Notes under the pieces: model-generated | The model's input: the letters and a program-made list of their open reading frames with translations, nothing else | Database searches by the model: none | What the model was told of the DNA's origin: nothing | Part shown: positions 3,907 through 39,711 of the stretch, piece by piece | Layout of the letters: every line of letters starts with the position of its first letter | Numbering within the stretch: position 1 is the first letter of the stretch | Made by a program: the position numbers and the translations under genes | Origin: Actinomycetales bacterium | GTDB lineage: Bacteria; Actinomycetota; Actinomycetes; Nanopelagicales; Nanopelagicaceae | DNA: 39,711 nt | Assembly: GCA_018969355.1 (NCBI GenBank) | Contig: JAGWYO010000013.1 | Coordinates: forward strand, 1 to 39,711 | Direction: 5' to 3'

Positions 3907-4851
3907 GTGCAAAAAGTAGTTGCACTAGGGGGAGGCCATGGCCTTGCCGCAACGTTGTCGGCGCTTCGCAAACTGACACATGAAATAACTGCGGTAGTCA
4001 CAGTTGCTGACAATGGTGGCTCTAGTGGTCGGCTGCGAGAAGAGTTTCCAATTTTGCCTCCAGGAGATTTGCGTATGGCACTTGCTGCATTATGTGCAGA
4101 TGATGAGTGGGGGCGCACATGGGCCCACATCATGCAACATCGCTTTGAAAGTCAAGGACCGCTCAATGGCCATGCGATGGGCAATCTCTTGCTGGCATCG
4201 CTATGGAATGAGAATGAAGATCCAGTCATTGGTTTAGATCGCGTCGGTCAGTTATTGAAAGTTATTGGCCGAGTTCTGCCTATGGCAGATACTGCCTTAG
4301 ATATTGAAGGAACATTTAATACTTCAACAGGGCGTATTGTTGTGAGGGGGCAAAAGGAAGTTGCCACAGCTAAAGGACGCATTGAATCACTGCGGGTCAT
4401 TCCTGAAAATCCACAGGCAAGATTAGAAGCACTTACCGCTATTCGTGTAGCCGACTGGATAACAATGGGTCCTGGATCGTGGTTTTCCTCCGTTATGCCA
4501 CATTTGATGGTGCCAATGCAGCACGATGCTCTAGTTCGCACAAAAGCTAAGAAGATATTGATTCTCAATCTAGATGCCACCAGTTCTACAACTGGTGAAG
4601 AGTTTGCCGGTTCCACACCAGAAGAGCACCTTGAGTTTTTTCACTCATATGCCCCGCAAGTAAAGATTGATTACTGCCTAGTTGATTCATCTGTGGTCCG
4701 AGACTCTGCTGCCCTTGATGATGCAGCGGCAAAAATGGGGGGAAAGGTGATTGCAGCCGATATTCGCAAGGCACCAGGCAGCGTTCATCACGATGTTTCT
4801 AAATTAACACTTCATTTGGGCCACATCATGGGTCCAAAACTGGTTGGATAA
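3907..4851 (+). CDS. yvcK: Gluconeogenesis factor YvcK (CofD-like fold)
   Basis: A 314-residue protein with the YvcK/CofD signatures: [17 protein letters not shown] at the N-terminus, then [12 protein letters not shown] and [10 protein letters not shown], and later [14 protein letters not shown]. In Bacillus and Mycobacterium this UDP-sugar-binding protein is needed for growth on gluconeogenic carbon and for cell-wall homeostasis; it should not be taken for an F420 enzyme. The start is GTG at 3907, 3 bp after the rapZ stop. The stop lies 4 bp before whiA, in the widely conserved order rapZ-yvcK-whiA. Confidence 0.93.
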
Positions 4852-4855
4852 CGCC

Positions 4856-5833
4856 ATGGCAATGACAGCTTCAGTCAAGGATGAACTTAGTCGAATCTCA
4901 GTGACTAAGCCTTGCTGTCGCAAAGCCGAGGTGTCCGCACTTCTTCGCTTTGCTGGCGGACTACACATAGCAGCCGGAAAGATTTTGATTGAAGTCGAAT
5001 TAGATACTTCACAAAGCGCGCGCAGACTGCGCAAAGATATTGCAGATATCTATGGACATGGCTCTGATTTAGCTGTGCTTTCATCGAGTGGATTGCGCAA
5101 AGGCTCACGCTATGTTGTTCGTGTCATTGAAGCCGGAGACGCCCTTGCTAGACAAACTGGTTTAGTAGATGCAAATGGCCGTCCAGTGAGAGGATTACCT
5201 CCACAAGTAGTCTCTGCTGCTATCTGTGATTCAGAGGCAGCATGGCGCGGAGCTTTTATTGCTCATGGTTCACTGACTGAACCTGGGCGTTCATCCTCAC
5301 TTGAAATCACTTGTCCAGGCCCAGAAGCGGCCTTGGCCTTGGTAGGAGCGGCTCGTCGAATGGGAATAGTGGCAAAGGCCAGAGAAGTACGTGGTGTTGA
5401 TCGCGTAGTTATTCGAGATGGAGATGCCATTGGAGTTCTACTTACACGCCTTGGTGCACATGAATCAGTACTAGCATGGGAAGAGCGCCGTATGCGACGT
5501 GAAGTTCGTGCAACAGCTAATCGGTTAGCAAATTTTGATGATGCAAATCTTCGTCGATCTGCTCGCGCTGCAGTTGCTGCTGCAGCGCGCGTGCAGCGTG
5601 CAATGGAAATTCTGGGTCCAACAATTCCTGATCATTTGAAAGAAGCCGGCGAACTTCGCATTAATCACGGTCAAGCCTCTCTTGAGGAGCTGGGTTCACT
5701 TGCGACTCCGCCTATGACCAAAGATGCCATAGCCGGTCGCATTCGCCGCCTACTGGCTATGGCAGATAAGCGTGCGGGGGAACTTGGAATTCCAGATACT
5801 GAGAGCGGGCTCTCGCCTGATTTATTGAATTAA
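4856..5833 (+). CDS. whiA: Sporulation/cell-division transcription regulator WhiA
   Basis: A 325-residue WhiA with the N-terminal degenerate LAGLIDADG-like domain ([18 protein letters not shown] near residues 17-34) and a C-terminal WhiA helix-turn-helix ([26 protein letters not shown]). In Streptomyces WhiA activates division genes with WhiB; in non-sporulating actinobacteria it is retained, presumably for division or growth control. I chose the ATG at 4856 because the product then begins [13 protein letters not shown], as in other actinobacterial WhiA proteins; the upstream in-frame TTG at 4844 would overlap yvcK. It is the last gene of this run and is followed by a 140-bp regulatory gap. 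Confidence 0.93.
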
Positions 5834-25867: not shown

Positions 25868-26083
25868 GCGCACTTTAGGCCTCAATTTCACCTTTTAGCC
25901 CCCAGCCGGTAACCTTTGCCCCAGACCAGTGGCCTAATAATCACTGCAAGAGGAGTTACCGCTCCCACCTTCTTCGCCACTAGTGCGAGCTGGTTTGTCG
26001 GATACGAGATGTACTTCTATCCTTGCGGTTTTCTCATGCAGCGCGTTTAGACCAAAGCGTTCAACGAAGCCGAAGGAGCACAA
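25868..26083 (+). promoter_or_regulatory. infC operon promoter and leader region
   Basis: This 216-bp gap contains a -10-like TAATAAT at 25935-25941 with a poor -35 candidate TTGCCC at 25916-25921. Downstream the leader holds GGAG-TTACCG-CTCC (25952-25965) and TCGC-CACTAGT-GCGA as small hairpins. AAGGAG at 26073-26078 is a perfect ribosome-binding site for the infC AUC start. Autogenous control through this leader is known for infC-rpmI-rplT in other bacteria; the structures here do not obviously match a family I can name. Confidence 0.45.
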
Positions 26084-26674
26084 ATCACAACTGACCCGCG
26101 CATTAATGATCGAATCCGCACACCCGAAATTCGTCTCATCGGTTACACCGGTGAGCAAGTTGGAGTTGTTGATATCGATACAGCGTTAAAGATGGCTGAT
26201 GAAGTTGGTCTCGACCTAGTCGAAATCGCACCAGATGCTAATCCACCCGTGTGCAAGATCATGGACTTTGGAAAATACAAGTACGAAGTTGCACAGAAGG
26301 CACGGGAAGCGCGACAGAACCAGACCCACATTGTGGTGAAGGAAGTGCGTTTAACACCAAAAATCGAAACTCATGATTATGAAACTAAACGTAATCAAGT
26401 TGAGAAATTTCTCAAGGGTGGCGACAAGGTGAAGGTGACGATGAAGTTCCGCGGCCGCGAACAGACGCGACCTGAGATGGGCTACAAGCTATTGCAACGT
26501 CTTGCAGAAGATGTCGCTGAGTGTGCCTTTGTCGAGTTCGCCCCTAAACAAGAGGGACGAAATATGACGATGGTGTTGGGTCCAACAAAAAAGAAGACAG
26601 AAGCAGTAGCTGAAGCAAAAGCAGCGCGTAAGGCAAAGGCCGATGCCGCAGCAGAGAGAACGGATGGAGCGTAA
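26084..26674 (+). CDS. infC: Translation initiation factor IF-3 (AUC start codon)
   Basis: A 196-residue IF-3, which keeps ribosomal subunits apart and checks start-codon selection. The N-domain begins with the family stretch [19 protein letters not shown], followed by VDLVEIAP-like [27 protein letters not shown]; the C-domain has [17 protein letters not shown] and [17 protein letters not shown]. The reading frame upstream has no ATG, GTG or TTG back to an in-frame TAG at 26048. The conserved N-terminus begins at ATC 26084, five bases after a perfect AAGGAG. An internal ATG at 26192 would remove the conserved N-terminal strand. Rare start codons are characteristic of infC and allow IF-3 to repress itself. 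It is followed by rpmI and rplT. Confidence 0.92.
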
Positions 26675-26677
26675 GAA

Positions 26678-26875
26678 ATGCCAAAGATGAAAACACATAG
26701 TGGTGCCAAAAAAACTTTCCGCATCACAGGTACTGGAAAGGTTATGCATGAGCGTGCTGGAAAGCGCCACTTACTCGAGCACAAATCTTCACGAGTCACC
26801 CGCCGTCTCTCAACTGAGAAGTCAGCAAAGCCAACCGTCACAATGACAGCCAAGCGCATGCTTGGCTTGAAGTAA
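26678..26875 (+). CDS. rpmI: 50S ribosomal protein L35
   Basis: A 65-residue, highly basic L35 beginning [21 protein letters not shown] and ending TAKRMLGL, both typical of the family. It binds 23S rRNA in the large subunit. The ATG is 3 bp after the infC stop, with no separate promoter. It belongs to the universal infC-rpmI-rplT operon. Confidence 0.97.
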
Positions 26876-26891
26876 GGAAGGTGTGAATTAA

Positions 26892-27251
26892 ATGAGAGTT
26901 AAACGTGGAGTTCACGCTGCTAAGAAGCGTCGCACAACTTTAGAACGTGCTAGTGGTTATCGCGGACAACGTTCCCGTCTTTTCACAAAGGCGAAGGAAC
27001 AAGTTACGCACTCAATGGTTTACGCATTCAACGATCGTAAAGAGAAGAAGGGCGATTTCCGTCGTTTATGGATTCAGCGCATTAACGCTGGATGCCGCGA
27101 ACATGGTCTTACCTACAACCGCTTCATCCAAGGCCTTAAGGCTGCTGGTGTGGAAGTAGACCGCCGCGTTCTTTCAGATCTAGCAACAAATGATCCTGCT
27201 ACATTCAAAACACTTGTTGATGTTGCTCGCAAGAGCCTTGTATCTGCCTAA
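26892..27251 (+). CDS. rplT: 50S ribosomal protein L20
   Basis: A 119-residue L20, starting [20 protein letters not shown] and including [19 protein letters not shown] and [21 protein letters not shown]20 is an early assembly protein of the large subunit and is a known autogenous repressor of this operon in E. coli and Bacillus. GGAAGGTGTG lies upstream of the ATG. A 15-bp perfect hairpin begins 16 nt after its stop codon, inside the next gene. Confidence 0.97.
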
Positions 27252-27260
27252 AAGATACCA

Positions 27261-28043
27261 ATGATTGAGAGCCTTAACTCGCCACATATCGCGCGAGTTA
27301 AGGCTCTGATTGGTTCTAAGGGGACCAAAGAACGTAAATCTTCCGGACACTTTGTTGCAGAGGGTTTGCAATGTGCTCGTGAAGCAATGGTGGCAACGAC
27401 TGGTCCACGTATTGAAACTTTATATGTCACACCAGCAGGTCGATTTAAAGTTGAACAGATTGCAGATCTTCATTCCTTTAATGTCGTTGAAGTAAGTGAT
27501 GGCGTGATGAAGGCGATGGCAGAGACAATTACGCCGCAAGGAATTCTGGCCGTGTGTTCCATCCCTATTAAGTCTTTAGAGTCAATCACTCTTAATGGAA
27601 CACGCAAATTTGTTTATCTTTCAGAGATTCAAGATCCAGGCAATGCTGGAACGATTATTCGCTCTGCTGATGCTTTTGGAATAGATGCTGTCATTACATC
27701 ACCTGGAAGTGTTGATCTCTATTCTCCAAAAGTTGTGCGTAGTACTGCCGGTTCACTCTGGCACACACCCGTGTTTGAAAACATTGAGTTAGCGGCGGTT
27801 CTAGCCCGTGGAGTGCAAGCTTTCACATTGGCTGCAGCAGCTCAAAAATCTCTCAAAGAGCTCAAGATCACTAATGATTGTGTAGCAATTTTTGGTAATG
27901 AGGCTAGGGGATTAGCAACTGCCCAAGGCCTATCATCTATTGAGCAAGTCAAGATATCGATGCCTGGTAATGCCGAAAGCCTAAATCTTTCAGCGGCAGC
28001 AACTATTGTTATGTATCACCTAGCAAATATCCCATCTTCCTAA
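27261..28043 (+). CDS. TrmH/SpoU-family RNA 2'-O-ribose methyltransferase
   Basis: A 260-residue SPOUT methyltransferase with an N-terminal RNA-binding extension and the three SpoU motifs: QDPGNAGTIIRSADAFG (motif 1), IFGNEARGL (motif 2) and MPGNAESLNLSAAATI (motif 3), the trefoil-knot SAM site. It probably methylates a 2'-hydroxyl in 23S rRNA or tRNA; the exact nucleotide cannot be told from sequence. The gene starts 9 bp after rplT, and such a gene commonly sits between rplT and pheS in actinobacteria. Codons 3-16 encode a perfect 15-bp inverted repeat that should fold in the mRNA just behind the start codon and depress translation or end transcription. Confidence 0.88.
   Translation: MIESLNSPHIARVKALIGSKGTKERKSSGHFVAEGLQCAREAMVATTGPRIETLYVTPAGRFKVEQIADLHSFNVVEVSDGVMKAMAETITPQGILAVCSIPIKSLESITLNGTRKFVYLSEIQDPGNAGTIIRSADAFGIDAVITSPGSVDLYSPKVVRSTAGSLWHTPVFENIELAAVLARGVQAFTLAAAAQKSLKELKITNDCVAIFGNEARGLATAQGLSSIEQVKISMPGNAESLNLSAAATIVMYHLANIPSS
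27268..27307. promoter_or_regulatory. 15-bp perfect inverted repeat in the methyltransferase start
   Basis: AGAGCCTTAACTCGC (27268-27282) and GCGAGTTAAGGCTCT (27293-27307) are exact reverse complements with a 10-nt loop. It begins 16 nt after the rplT stop and 7 nt into the next gene. It lacks the T-run of a classical terminator. Possible roles are a 3' stabiliser or terminator for infC-rpmI-rplT, or a translational attenuator for the methyltransferase. Confidence 0.8.
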
Positions 28044-28063
28044 ACTCTCACAGGATAGAGTTT
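28042..28063 (+). promoter_or_regulatory. Hairpin at the pheS start / possible pheS promoter
   Basis: AAACTCT (28042-28048) and AGAGTTT (28057-28063) form a 7-bp stem with an 8-nt loop, immediately after the methyltransferase stop. The only ribosome-binding-like bases for pheS (GGAT) fall in its loop. TAGAGT at 28056-28061 ends 7 nt before the pheS ATG and could alternatively be a -10 for a nearly leaderless message. Confidence 0.4.
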
Positions 28064-28068
28064 GCTCT

Positions 28069-29076
28069 ATGCGCCAAGAAGATATCTCACAATGGGTTAC
28101 AGATGCCCAGGTAGCATTTAGCGCTGCTACAGATCTTGATTCCCTTAAAACTGCTCGATTAGCCCATGCTGGAGATAAAGCACCGATTTCACTTGCGTCC
28201 AGAACTCTTGGGTCTCTAACACCTGATGAAAAAGCTAGTTTTGGAAAAATTATTGGAGATGGCAAAGCAGCCATCGCACTGGCCTTAGCACAAGCAACAG
28301 AAAAGCTAGAGGCCGAGCGTGATAGGAAAGTATTGTTGGAAGAAGTCGTTGATATTACTTTGCCTGTCAATCGCAGACATCGTGGCGGGCTCCATCCGAT
28401 TTCCATAATTAAAAATGAAGTCTCAGATTTCTTCATTGAGCAGGGTTATGCAGTGGCAGAAGGCCCAGAGCTTGAATCTGGTTGGTTGAACTTTGATGCA
28501 CTCAACATTCCTGCAGATCATCCAGCTCGCACAATGCAGGACACATTCTTTGTCGAGCCAGTTGAATCTGGAATGGTGCTACGCACTCACACATCTCCTG
28601 TTCAAATTCGCACGATGTTGACCCAAGCACCACCCATTTATGTCATCTGTCCTGGGCGAACTTTTAGAGCAGATGAGTTGGACGCAACGCATAGTCCAGT
28701 TTTTCATCAGGTAGAAGGCTTAGTTGTTGATAAGGGCATAACTATGGCGCACCTTAAAGGAACCCTCGATAACTTTGCCCGTCATATGTTTGGTCCAGAT
28801 GTGACAACTCGCCTTCGCCCTTCATTTTTCCCATTCACTGAGCCAAGTGCTGAAGTTGACATATTCTTTAACAATCGTTGGATTGAATGGGGCGGTTGTG
28901 GAATGGTCAATCCAAAGGTGCTACATAGTTGCGGGATAGATACTGATATCTATAGTGGCTTTGCTTTTGGTATGGGGTTAGAGCGAACCTTGATGGTGCG
29001 ACATGGCATTACTGACATGCATGACATTGTTGAAGGAGATCTGCGCTTCACGCGCCAATTCGGGGTGGGACTCTAA
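28069..29076 (+). CDS. pheS: Phenylalanine-tRNA ligase alpha subunit
   Basis: A 335-residue class II synthetase alpha chain, slightly short but complete. The N-terminal coiled-coil that touches tRNA-Phe is followed by the catalytic core: HPISIIKNEV, GPELESGWLNFDALNIPADHPAR (motif 1 region), CPGRTFRADELDATHSPVFHQVEGL (motif 2) and the C-terminal FAFGMGLERTLM (motif 3). It forms an alpha2-beta2 enzyme with PheT. Its stop TAA shares the last base with the pheT ATG. A small hairpin precedes the start. Confidence 0.97.
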   Translation: MRQEDISQWVTDAQVAFSAATDLDSLKTARLAHAGDKAPISLASRTLGSLTPDEKASFGKIIGDGKAAIALALAQATEKLEAERDRKVLLEEVVDITLPVNRRHRGGLHPISIIKNEVSDFFIEQGYAVAEGPELESGWLNFDALNIPADHPARTMQDTFFVEPVESGMVLRTHTSPVQIRTMLTQAPPIYVICPGRTFRADELDATHSPVFHQVEGLVVDKGITMAHLKGTLDNFARHMFGPDVTTRLRPSFFPFTEPSAEVDIFFNNRWIEWGGCGMVNPKVLHSCGIDTDIYSGFAFGMGLERTLMVRHGITDMHDIVEGDLRFTRQFGVGL

Positions 29077-31532
29077 TGCGCGCACCGCTATCGTGGATTA
29101 AAGAGTTTGTTGATATCCCTGCAAACATAAGTGCAGAAGAGATCTCTAATGGCCTAATTCGCGTCGGCTTTGAAGTTGAGGAAATCATCTCTCAAGGAGC
29201 TGATTTAACTGGTCCACTCAAATTTGCGAAGGTGCTCTCGATTCAAGAGCTAACCGAGCACAAGAAACCCATTCGCTATGTGGGACTTGATTGTGGCGAA
29301 AAAGAAACACGATTTGTAATCTGTGGTGCTACGAATTTTGCTGTGGGGGACATGATTGTTGCCGCTCTTCCAGGGGCTGTGTTGCCTGGTAATTTTGCAA
29401 TCGGAGCACGTGAGACGTATGGCAAAACTTCTAATGGAATGATCTGCTCCGCTCGCGAACTAGGTATTAGTGACGAGCATGCTGGCATCATGGTTTTTTC
29501 ACAGGCTGATGTGAAAATTGGTGCCGATGCAATCGAAGGCTTGCAGATTAACGATGTTATCTTTGATGTTGCAGTCAACCCTGATCGCGGTTATGCATTG
29601 AGTATGCGCGGAATAGCCCGAGAGGTCGCGGGCTCACTTGGCCTTACGTTCACAGATCCAGTGGATGCGCTGCGTTCAATAAAGTTTTCAGAAACCGGCA
29701 AAGGTGTGAGTGCCACGATTGAAGATAGATCTTCTGCCTCAGTTTTCTATCTTCGAACCATGTCCAATTTTGATTCAAAAGCCACAACACCGCTGTGGAT
29801 GCGCAGGCGCATTGAAAAGATGGGTATGCGCTCAATTTCACTTGTTGTCGATGTTACTAACTACGTCATGTTAGAACTGGGCCAACCTTTGCACGCCTTT
29901 GACAAGTCAAAAATCAAGGGCGGACTAACCGTCAAGCGTGCTGGCAAGGCACAGAAATTTCTCACTTTGGATGGACAGGAGCGCACATTAGATCCAGATG
30001 ATTTGATGGTCTGTGATGATGAACAACCCTTGGCATTAGCTGGAACGATGGGTGGTCTTTCATCAGAGATCACTCAAACTACGACTGAAATTGCTTTGGA
30101 AGCGCTTCGATTTGATCCCGTGTGTATTGCTAAAAACTCGCGCAGACACAAACTTTCATCCGAGGCATCAAGGCGTTTCGAGCGAAGCGTTGATCCTTCA
30201 TTGGCCCAGTTTGCATCGGCGCGATTTGTTCAACTAATGACTGAACATAGCTCAGCCGTCCATGTTGCAACTGTGGTTGCAGGAGAGCCCCTTTATCCAC
30301 CTGTTGTCAAGATCGATCCCGCTCACATATCACATATTCTTGGCTTTGAAGTATCAAATGCTGATGTGGCGCGCATCCTTCGCCTTATTGGCTGCGATGT
30401 GGATGAGAAGAGCTGGACGGTTGATCCACCATCATGGCGCGCAGATTTAGTAGGGGTGGCAGATTTGGCTGAAGAAGTAGCGCGAATGATTGGTTACGAC
30501 AAAATTCCTTCTATTTTGCCACCACGACCTTTGCACGCATCTTTAACCCCAACTCAAAAGCGTCGCAGAGCAGTTGCCACAATGCTAGCTAGCCGTGGAT
30601 TAGCTGAAGTGCAAACTTTCCCATTTACTAATCGAGAAACTATTGATGCGATGGGTTTTGTTGGTGAGCGTTCAGCTACGTATGCAATTGCTAATCCTAT
30701 GTCGGAAGAGTTTCCATTGATGCGTGTTCATTTAGTGCCCGGATTAATTGAGGTTGCACAGCGCAACATCAGCCGAGGCGCAAAGGATTTTGCTATTTTT
30801 GAAATGGGCTCAATTTTCCGTAGTTCTCAGAAATTAGTACCAGCAATTTCGCCTGACTTAACCAAGCGTCCAAGTCATAAAGTAATTGATGAGATTTTTG
30901 CTTCAGTGCCACCACAGGCCTATCACGTTGCTGGTTTGCTTGTGGGTAAAGTGGAGAATGAGAATTGGCAAGGAAAAGCTCGTTCCTATACTTGGCACGA
31001 TGCAATTGAATATGCCCAAGATATTTTGGCGTTATGTCAGCTTGAGTGGAGCATTAAGCGCTCTGACTTTGCCCCGTGGCATCCAGGGCGGTGCGCTGAA
31101 CTTATTGTGGATGGCAAGGCTGTGGCACATGCCGGAGAGCTGCACCCACGCATTATTGCTAGTTATGGATTGCCTGAGCGAAGTGTTGCATTTGCTGTTG
31201 GATTAAGCGCTCTTCCAGATTCATCTATCGTGCGTCCTACTCGTGTGGGAACAATGCCTGCGGCTCTGCAAGATGTGGCATTAATTGTTGATGAGAAGGT
31301 AACTGCAGCCGAAGTTCAGGCTTCCCTAACCGAAGGTGCTGGAGATTTACTTGAATCCATCTCTCTTTTTGATCGCTACGACAAGATTGGCGATGGGAAA
31401 ATCTCCCTGGCTTTCACCCTTGTCTTTAGAGCACCTGATCGCACTTTGAATGGCGATGAGGTTTCAGCCATGCGTGAGGCAGCTACTGCGGCGGCAGCCA
31501 AGAAGTGCGGAGCAGTAGTTCGGTCCGCATAA
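29076..31532 (+). CDS. pheT: Phenylalanine-tRNA ligase beta subunit
   Basis: An 818-residue PheT of normal length. It starts MRAPLSWIKEFVDIP; the EMAP/OB-like tRNA-binding domain follows (FVICGATNFAVGD), then the B3/B4 editing domain (LVVDVTNYVMLELGQPLHAFD), the B5 fold (VDPPSWRADL) and a C-terminal anticodon-binding fold (SLFDRYDKIGDGKISLAFTLVFRAPDRTL). Editing of mischarged Tyr-tRNA-Phe is expected. It overlaps pheS by one base. Its final codons and TAA stop lie inside the first of the two ARG boxes that control argC downstream. Confidence 0.97.
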   Translation: MRAPLSWIKEFVDIPANISAEEISNGLIRVGFEVEEIISQGADLTGPLKFAKVLSIQELTEHKKPIRYVGLDCGEKETRFVICGATNFAVGDMIVAALPGAVLPGNFAIGARETYGKTSNGMICSARELGISDEHAGIMVFSQADVKIGADAIEGLQINDVIFDVAVNPDRGYALSMRGIAREVAGSLGLTFTDPVDALRSIKFSETGKGVSATIEDRSSASVFYLRTMSNFDSKATTPLWMRRRIEKMGMRSISLVVDVTNYVMLELGQPLHAFDKSKIKGGLTVKRAGKAQKFLTLDGQERTLDPDDLMVCDDEQPLALAGTMGGLSSEITQTTTEIALEALRFDPVCIAKNSRRHKLSSEASRRFERSVDPSLAQFASARFVQLMTEHSSAVHVATVVAGEPLYPPVVKIDPAHISHILGFEVSNADVARILRLIGCDVDEKSWTVDPPSWRADLVGVADLAEEVARMIGYDKIPSILPPRPLHASLTPTQKRRRAVATMLASRGLAEVQTFPFTNRETIDAMGFVGERSATYAIANPMSEEFPLMRVHLVPGLIEVAQRNISRGAKDFAIFEMGSIFRSSQKLVPAISPDLTKRPSHKVIDEIFASVPPQAYHVAGLLVGKVENENWQGKARSYTWHDAIEYAQDILALCQLEWSIKRSDFAPWHPGRCAELIVDGKAVAHAGELHPRIIASYGLPERSVAFAVGLSALPDSSIVRPTRVGTMPAALQDVALIVDEKVTAAEVQASLTEGAGDLLESISLFDRYDKIGDGKISLAFTLVFRAPDRTLNGDEVSAMREAATAAAAKKCGAVVRSA

Positions 31533-39348: not shown

Positions 39349-39711
<363 letters not shown>

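Follow-up and report, generated by a model that had tools for sequence, protein, structure and literature searches.

The window analysed here, a stretch of DNA of 39,711 bases, contains an RNA hairpin within the first codons of a SpoU-family RNA methyltransferase gene, and by sequence comparison this hairpin is a real structure, selected at the RNA level inside the codons across the sampled members of the freshwater actinobacterial family Nanopelagicaceae. Its most likely role, in our opinion, is that of a leaky terminator or attenuator of the infC-rpmI-rplT message, which would have become part of the downstream reading frame because the start of the methyltransferase gene lies only a few nucleotides past the rplT stop codon. 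The hairpin would accordingly form the 3' end of the infC-rpmI-rplT message, with partial read-through, so that only a fraction of RNA polymerases would proceed into methyltransferase-pheS-pheT. We infer that RNA polymerase would stop at the hairpin with some frequency, and that the selected trait would be how much ribosomal protein is made relative to methyltransferase and phenylalanyl-tRNA synthetase (PheRS). Codons 3-19 would then carry protein and terminator at once, and some residues would follow the RNA pairing.

The hairpin and its genomic setting

The window constitutes contig 16 of a genome of 1,401,825 bases in 83 contigs; its end (39349-39711) falls inside a 16S rRNA gene (Rfam RF00177). 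The genes rpmI, rplT, SpoU-family methyltransferase, pheS and pheT follow each other in this order on the + strand, and the features of the locus were as follows:

26678-26875, + strand: rpmI, ribosomal protein L35 (PF01632)
26892-27251, + strand: rplT, ribosomal protein L20 (PF00453, TIGR01032)
27257-27262, + strand: lower helix, 5' side, ACCA plus the AU of AUG, complementary to 27309-27314
27261-28043, + strand: SpoU-family RNA methyltransferase (PF00588; MRM3-like substrate-binding domain PF22435)
27268-27282, + strand: hairpin 5' arm, AGAGCCTTAACTCGC, codons 3-8 of the methyltransferase gene
27283-27292, + strand: hairpin loop of 10 nt, codon 8 to codon 11
27293-27307, + strand: hairpin 3' arm, GCGAGTTAAGGCTCT, codons 11-16 of the methyltransferase gene
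27306-27317, + strand: T-biased tail, codons 16-19 (95 sequences)
27309-27314, + strand: lower helix, 3' side, ATTGGT, codons 17-18
28069-29076, + strand: pheS, downstream of the methyltransferase gene
29076-31532, + strand: pheT, downstream of pheS

It should be added that infC, inspected by eye, has an apparent start at ATC 26084 (or ATT 26102), a rare start codon, after AAGGAG at 26073-26078; this putative start is in frame with ATG 26192, where the list of open reading frames begins the gene. The nearest solved chain to the methyltransferase was 9h1k, ‘23S rRNA methyltransferase’ (E 9.4e-29). We presume that this may be the enzyme of a 2025 paper on Thermus thermophilus RlmR, reportedly an A-loop Um2552 enzyme. 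The NshR/TsnR model scored 33.7 on the methyltransferase, far under its cut-off of 425. A promoter scan of positions 26600-28200 returned a single site, within the gene, against 1.5 in shuffled sequences. Downstream on the same strand, pheS was found in 165 of 175 loci overall, and it was the next gene in all 156 Nanopelagicaceae loci with at least 450 nt to inspect (duplicates counted), so that read-through would feed both the methyltransferase and PheRS.

The stem consists of 15 bp, is fully complementary and begins 16 nt after the rplT stop codon (ending at 27251), the ATG of the methyltransferase being located at 27261; the whole hairpin lies within codons 3-16. The perfect 15-bp hairpin with a 10-nt loop described in the first-pass annotation was thereby confirmed in its coordinates. 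An inverted-repeat search of the window (seed 9, length of at least 12, copies at most 60 nt apart) detected seven repeats, among which 27268-27307 was the sole fully complementary one. The fold of 27230-27330 (101 nt) reached -40.2 kcal/mol (z -5.60), and none of 200 shuffled sequences was equally stable. Furthermore, when residues 1-19 were kept fixed and the codons were redrawn according to the codon usage of five window genes, none of 20,000 synonymous versions was as stable as the native one. Chance was rejected on these two counts, in agreement with the earlier claim that the hairpin is beyond it.

For comparison within the same genome, 276 kb were sampled (the window plus 20 further stretches). 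The window hairpin ranked fourth among 52 hairpins with a simple stem score of at least 26, and the methyltransferase start was second among 267 starts of crudely called open reading frames by local folding energy. The strongest local fold of a start in the 276 kb (-28.2 kcal/mol) belonged to the open reading frame L310:3313-4722, with a predicted start codon. Two more strong hairpins, at 5560-5593 and 5725-5764, are situated within one open reading frame of the window (4844-5833, a crude call). A repeated element was also considered and rejected: at E 0.001, a 201-base query had no match elsewhere in its own genome, the hits being to itself and, for the hairpin, to its reverse complement.

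A stable GC-containing hairpin soon 3' of a stop codon, as expected of a terminator, is present at 27268-27307. A terminator usually, although not obligatorily, avoids the coding sequence of the gene that follows; this hairpin does not, residues from 5 onward being alignable with 9h1k.

Pairing and codon choice in Nanopelagicaceae

Among 101 genomes of the same genus, 99 gave a protein match; 18 of these matches were weak only (E above 1e-14) and resembled other SpoU genes or fragments. Some loci (L055, L056, L057, L067 and L104, among others) derive from metagenome records titled Bifidobacterium breve or Streptomyces griseus with Nanopelagicaceae-like DNA, and these titles look wrong. The Planktophila alignment was built from 112 loci; after removal of L103, which has no 5' end, and merging of identical coding sequences it comprised 95 rows, 91 of them distinct, the most distant members having about 53% protein identity to the methyltransferase of the window.

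In the 91 distinct sequences, 99.3% of 1365 upper-stem cells were paired, compared with 20-51% after one arm had been slid by 1-3 columns. Compensatory changes in the two arms were found: 43 stem cells were changed on both sides against a shuffled mean of 18.5, and none of 500 shuffles reached 43. The upper-stem count of doubly changed pairs (2) and of further pair types was matched by 39 of 500 shuffles, which is weak. Relatives that keep the amino acids and lose the pairing had been named beforehand as the outcome speaking against the hairpin, and the opposite was seen.

Columns 26/49 held CG in 50 and AU in 41 of 91 rows, while columns 31/44 held GC in 84, UA in 2 and other combinations in 5. 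Residue 6 was coupled to the codon of Val13 in all 95 rows, Asn6 (AAC/AAT) occurring with GTT in 41 and His6 (CAC/CAT) with GTG in 54. On the family tree (FastTree, 160 family sequences, residues 30-255) columns 26/49 required at least 2 changes among paired states, columns 31/44 at least 5 and the lower-helix pair 9/62 at least 14; 7, 23 and 45 of the 160 rows, respectively, were omitted as having no listed paired state. Altogether, the 1425 stem cells of the 95 rows contained 1358 Watson-Crick pairs, 57 G.U, 4 A.C and 6 other combinations. Since G.U is far above A.C (57 vs 4), selection acts on the sense RNA, and a palindrome at the DNA level is ruled out.

For a shared residue, codon identity amounted to 0.77 over codons 2-17, compared with 0.42 at the 160 sites beginning at codon 20. 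Ser4, Leu5, Lys14 and Ala15, among other stem codons, were almost invariant (0.96-1.0), and codons 6, 12 and 13 changed in step with their pairing partners or through G.U. In the loop, codons 8 and 10 were free (0.49 and 0.45), with 0.81 for codon 9 (His).

When the 140 nt behind rplT were scanned for gapless stems across the family, 152 of 163 distinct loci scored at least 28; such a scan overlooks bulged hairpins. Nine of the 11 low-scoring loci carried, by eye, bulged or shorter hairpins, and the remaining two were without the expected stem: in L099 the methyltransferase gene does not follow rplT, and L185 has a different fold. Genus g6 (L190, L192, L194 and L197) has at the same place a stem of 21 bp with one mismatch, of unrelated sequence and encoding different residues; for L190, 0 of 2000 synonymous versions folded as stably. 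The expected stem began 7-61 nt past the rplT stop in the loci examined for it. In all 13 representatives a candidate start codon preceded the stem, the distance to a reference codon within the stem being 9-27 nt; the hairpin is accordingly coding there, and the spacing between start and stem is not fixed.

Two other readings were considered. The hairpin might have arisen by chance or as a by-product of the conserved N-terminal motif S-P-x-x-x-R-V-K-A-L, which is common to 9h1k, and complementary codons can indeed encode SLN..VKA; we give this practically no credence, considering that no version among 20,000 synonymous ones was as stable, that g6 forms its hairpin with different residues, and that codon identity, codon redraw and compensatory changes alike led us to reject the motif as the source. 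Alternatively, the hairpin could serve as an autoregulatory operator bound by L20 or by the methyltransferase. The encoded enzyme being a SpoU-family rRNA methyltransferase would suit such a role, and L20 leaders occur in other phyla. However, the free variation of loop codons 8 and 10 speaks against a sequence-specific binder, and both stem and loop differ in g6, which makes an operator highly improbable. The Rfam scan of the window at gathering score placed no family over the hairpin, the 16S rRNA fragment being its only match, and a known RNA family was dismissed at that score. The attractive thought of the first-pass annotation, that an rRNA-modifying enzyme is tied here to ribosomal-protein expression, is a conjecture, and the freedom of the loop stands against its sequence-specific form.

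Termination, translation and the wider class

Directly behind the stem the codons favour T. In the 95 sequences the fractions of T-ending codons at positions 16-19 were 0.93, 0.72, 0.86 and 0.67, where the remainder of the gene predicts 0.24, 0.50, 0.31 and 0.31; codons 20-22 were at or under expectation. An excess of T was also noted outside the tail, at codons 2, 5, 9 and 15, of which 5 and 15 lie within the stem. Codon 16 was CTT in 88 rows and CTC in one, although CTC is the better partner for the facing G (column 17). The T of codon 18 (T64) was retained in 41 of 51 rows with an unpairable lower-helix partner and in 41 of 44 with a pairable one. We read the T bias 3' of the stem, from these codon counts, as selection for a U-rich tail.

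The tract itself is modest: the window has 4 T among the 8 bases after GGCTC, and the commonest tail, TTATTGGT (44 of 101), has 5 T of 8. In 29 of 48 loci without GAGAGCCTT, mostly of other genera, GGCTC was followed by TTTTGGGT or TTTTAGGT, and few T stand behind many hairpins of GC-rich relatives. A terminator scan made no call at the window hairpin, whose 10-nt loop is excluded by the scan's loop limit of 8, nor at L136 and L125. Among the 21 own-genome hairpins scoring at least 29 in the 276 kb, 6 were intergenic by crude calls of open reading frames; the T content of the tails varied, with directions unassigned.

Outside the family, the class sample comprised 148 genomes, 137 of them not of Nanopelagicaceae, from which 100 loci were taken down the match list rather than at random; 99 were analysed (L285 is without rplT), while 37 genomes, including two that gave no match, contributed no locus. 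These 99 loci share phylogenetic history and so do not count as independent. In 43 of 99 loci, as compared to 15 of 494 control windows, rplT was followed by a gapless stem with z above 3, and depending on the method a hairpin was recorded after rplT in 43-57 of the 99. RNAfold profiles dipped at +10 to +40 past the rplT stop. Where the methyltransferase starts more than 60 nt from rplT, an outlying fold was present in 25 or 26 of 34 loci vs 0, 4 and 2 of 34 in controls; with a start at 60 nt or less the numbers were 31 of 65 vs 0, 5 and 2 of 65, and the other 34 of 65 had no outlying hairpin (local fold, -5 to +90, 50-nt windows). In these fold z-scores the reference windows include the control intervals, the target windows extend to +140, and hairpin positions were not checked individually. 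By position, hairpins of other families were mostly intergenic given room, and otherwise in or beside the gene start.

Codon redraws in loci beyond the window, picked because a hairpin had already been seen and run with small codon tables (246-398 codons), gave among 2000 synonymous versions 0 as stable for L168, 2 for L164, 4 each for L163 and L175, 10 for L165, 15 for L174 and 43 for L259. L296 was uninformative, its stem crossing the start codon (1073 of 2000 as low). Outside the class, in a phylum sample of 25 loci, 7 of the 23 with rplT reached z below -3, without controls.

A hairpin that often stands between the genes if space allows and otherwise in the start of the following gene, with a T-biased tail in Nanopelagicaceae, is best understood as a terminator or attenuator. 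Against this reading stand the weak U tract, the T excess outside the tail and the close-spaced loci without an outlying hairpin, as well as the Asn/His swap resting on approximately two changes on the tree. The proposal that the hairpin ends or protects the ribosomal-protein message is nevertheless the best supported part of the first-pass annotation, with conserved pairing, a hairpin after rplT in about half of the 99 loci and the T-biased tail in its favour, while termination itself is what we infer. It should also be mentioned that the end of rplT (AGAGCCTT, 27232-27239) can pair with the 3' arm (AAGGCTCT, 27300-27307) in an 8-bp alternative, a candidate antiterminator, recognised by eye in the window and its near relatives and not in distant genera.

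Termination by itself leaves the lower helix with the AUG unexplained, and translational control is for this reason a live rival. This helix joins alignment columns 7-12 (the four bases before ATG, plus AU) with columns 59-64, and in Planktophila it would hide part of the methyltransferase start codon. Its four non-start pairs were formed in 72.0% of 364 cells; shuffling gave 59.5% on average, none of 500 shuffles reaching the observed value, and sliding gave 12-51%. Pair 9/62 was CG in 48, AU in 15, UA in 12, UG in 11 and other in 5 of 91 rows. One side of the helix being non-coding, the covariation is structural.

Hairpin and lower helix together could thus keep the methyltransferase start out of reach, weak initiation depending on ribosomes that finish rplT, i.e. 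on coupling by RNA unfolding, a model treated in PMC12548453. In keeping with it, the helix containing the AU of AUG covaries in Planktophila, with at least 14 changes of pair 9/62 (tree without 45 of the 160 rows), and by eye no purine-rich Shine-Dalgarno stretch precedes the methyltransferase ATG, rplT having AAGGAAGG upstream. However, in the lower helix the doubly changed pairs and further pair types were reached by 301 and 59 of 500 shuffles, respectively, and the helix is absent from the minimum-energy fold of the window itself, where it is supplanted by a second small hairpin at 27310-27328 (TTGGTTCT / GGGACCAA), directly 3' of the main stem. The T of codon 18 is mostly kept even with an unpairable partner, as counted above, and codon 19 is outside the helix. 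Moreover, in 8 of 12 other-genus representatives the candidate start codon is 15-27 nt before the reference codon of the stem, so that the AUG is not generally hidden, yet the stem stays; in 6 of 12 the candidate start is within or overlapping rplT. A start codon in a conserved helix is supported in the Planktophila alignment and not where, as in these representatives, the start lies upstream or overlaps rplT. The earlier suggestion that the hairpin limits translation of the methyltransferase gained ground in Planktophila and lost it in these other genera, and on balance translational control appears unlikely to us.

A processing or stabilising element, in which the hairpin acts as a barrier to 3'-5' exonucleases or as an RNase III cleavage site and leaves a stable rpmI-rplT message, would involve no termination at this site. 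A hairpin of unrelated sequence recurs at the equivalent place outside Nanopelagicaceae; PMC8269248 treats structured Streptomyces ends without a U tract either as I-shaped terminators or as Rho-dependent transcript ends; and according to PMC5371410 the rplT-pheM hairpin of Escherichia coli is an RNase III site. All this would suit such an element, but the T bias behind the stem is unnecessary for protection or cleavage, and we regard processing as rather improbable.

The locus is a clear case of one DNA stretch being both a protein-coding start and a structured RNA signal across a bacterial family, in which an Asn/His replacement goes together with a synonymous change at a codon seven residues further on. 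By this example, terminators or attenuators may hide in the first codons of downstream genes and be missed by searches for intergenic RNA elements; the locus also lends itself readily to testing how the levels of ribosomal proteins and tRNA synthetase are made to differ within one operon.

Comparison with known systems

In the open-licence PMC literature, searched by title and start of the abstract, no description of an rplT-methyltransferase hairpin was found. In other phyla, operons for ribosomal proteins or PheRS are controlled by L20 leader and T-box leader RNAs; the Rfam scan of the window at gathering score matched neither, the 16S rRNA fragment being its sole match.

The embedded hairpin resembles actinobacterial intrinsic terminators, U-poor I-shaped ones included, in being long, stable and placed shortly past a stop codon. 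The tails are T-biased in Nanopelagicaceae and U-poor in many GC-rich relatives, and GC-rich structured ends without a U tract are reported for Streptomyces in PMC8269248. What sets the window hairpin apart is that it lies entirely within the coding start of the gene that follows, whose codons change along with it. With structures that occlude start codons in translational coupling it shares, in Planktophila, an AUG that is partly in a covarying helix after a close stop codon, whereas in 8 of 12 other-genus representatives the start is at least 15 nt ahead of the reference codon of the stem.

The nearest counterpart by position is the rplT-pheST junction of E. coli, where, according to PMC5371410, hairpins of the pheM attenuator decide on transcription into the PheRS genes and an RNase III site lies inside. 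The window hairpin is likewise located between rplT and pheST. However, the leader peptide pheM is short, rich in Phe and accompanied by alternative hairpins, while here the hairpin is within a full enzyme gene; residues 1-19 of the methyltransferase (MIESLNSPHIARVKALIGS) are without Phe, so no Phe-rich leader codons are present, and an alternative structure was seen in the window and near relatives only.

As a tentative idea, which we put forward as conceivable rather than probable, the coding-embedded attenuator between rplT and the methyltransferase may be an ancient device of actinobacteria for setting the proportion of ribosomal protein to rRNA methyltransferase and PheRS, in place of the pheM of E. 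coli and the T-box of Firmicutes, its hairpin turning over in sequence and not in place and dragging the N-terminal residues along.
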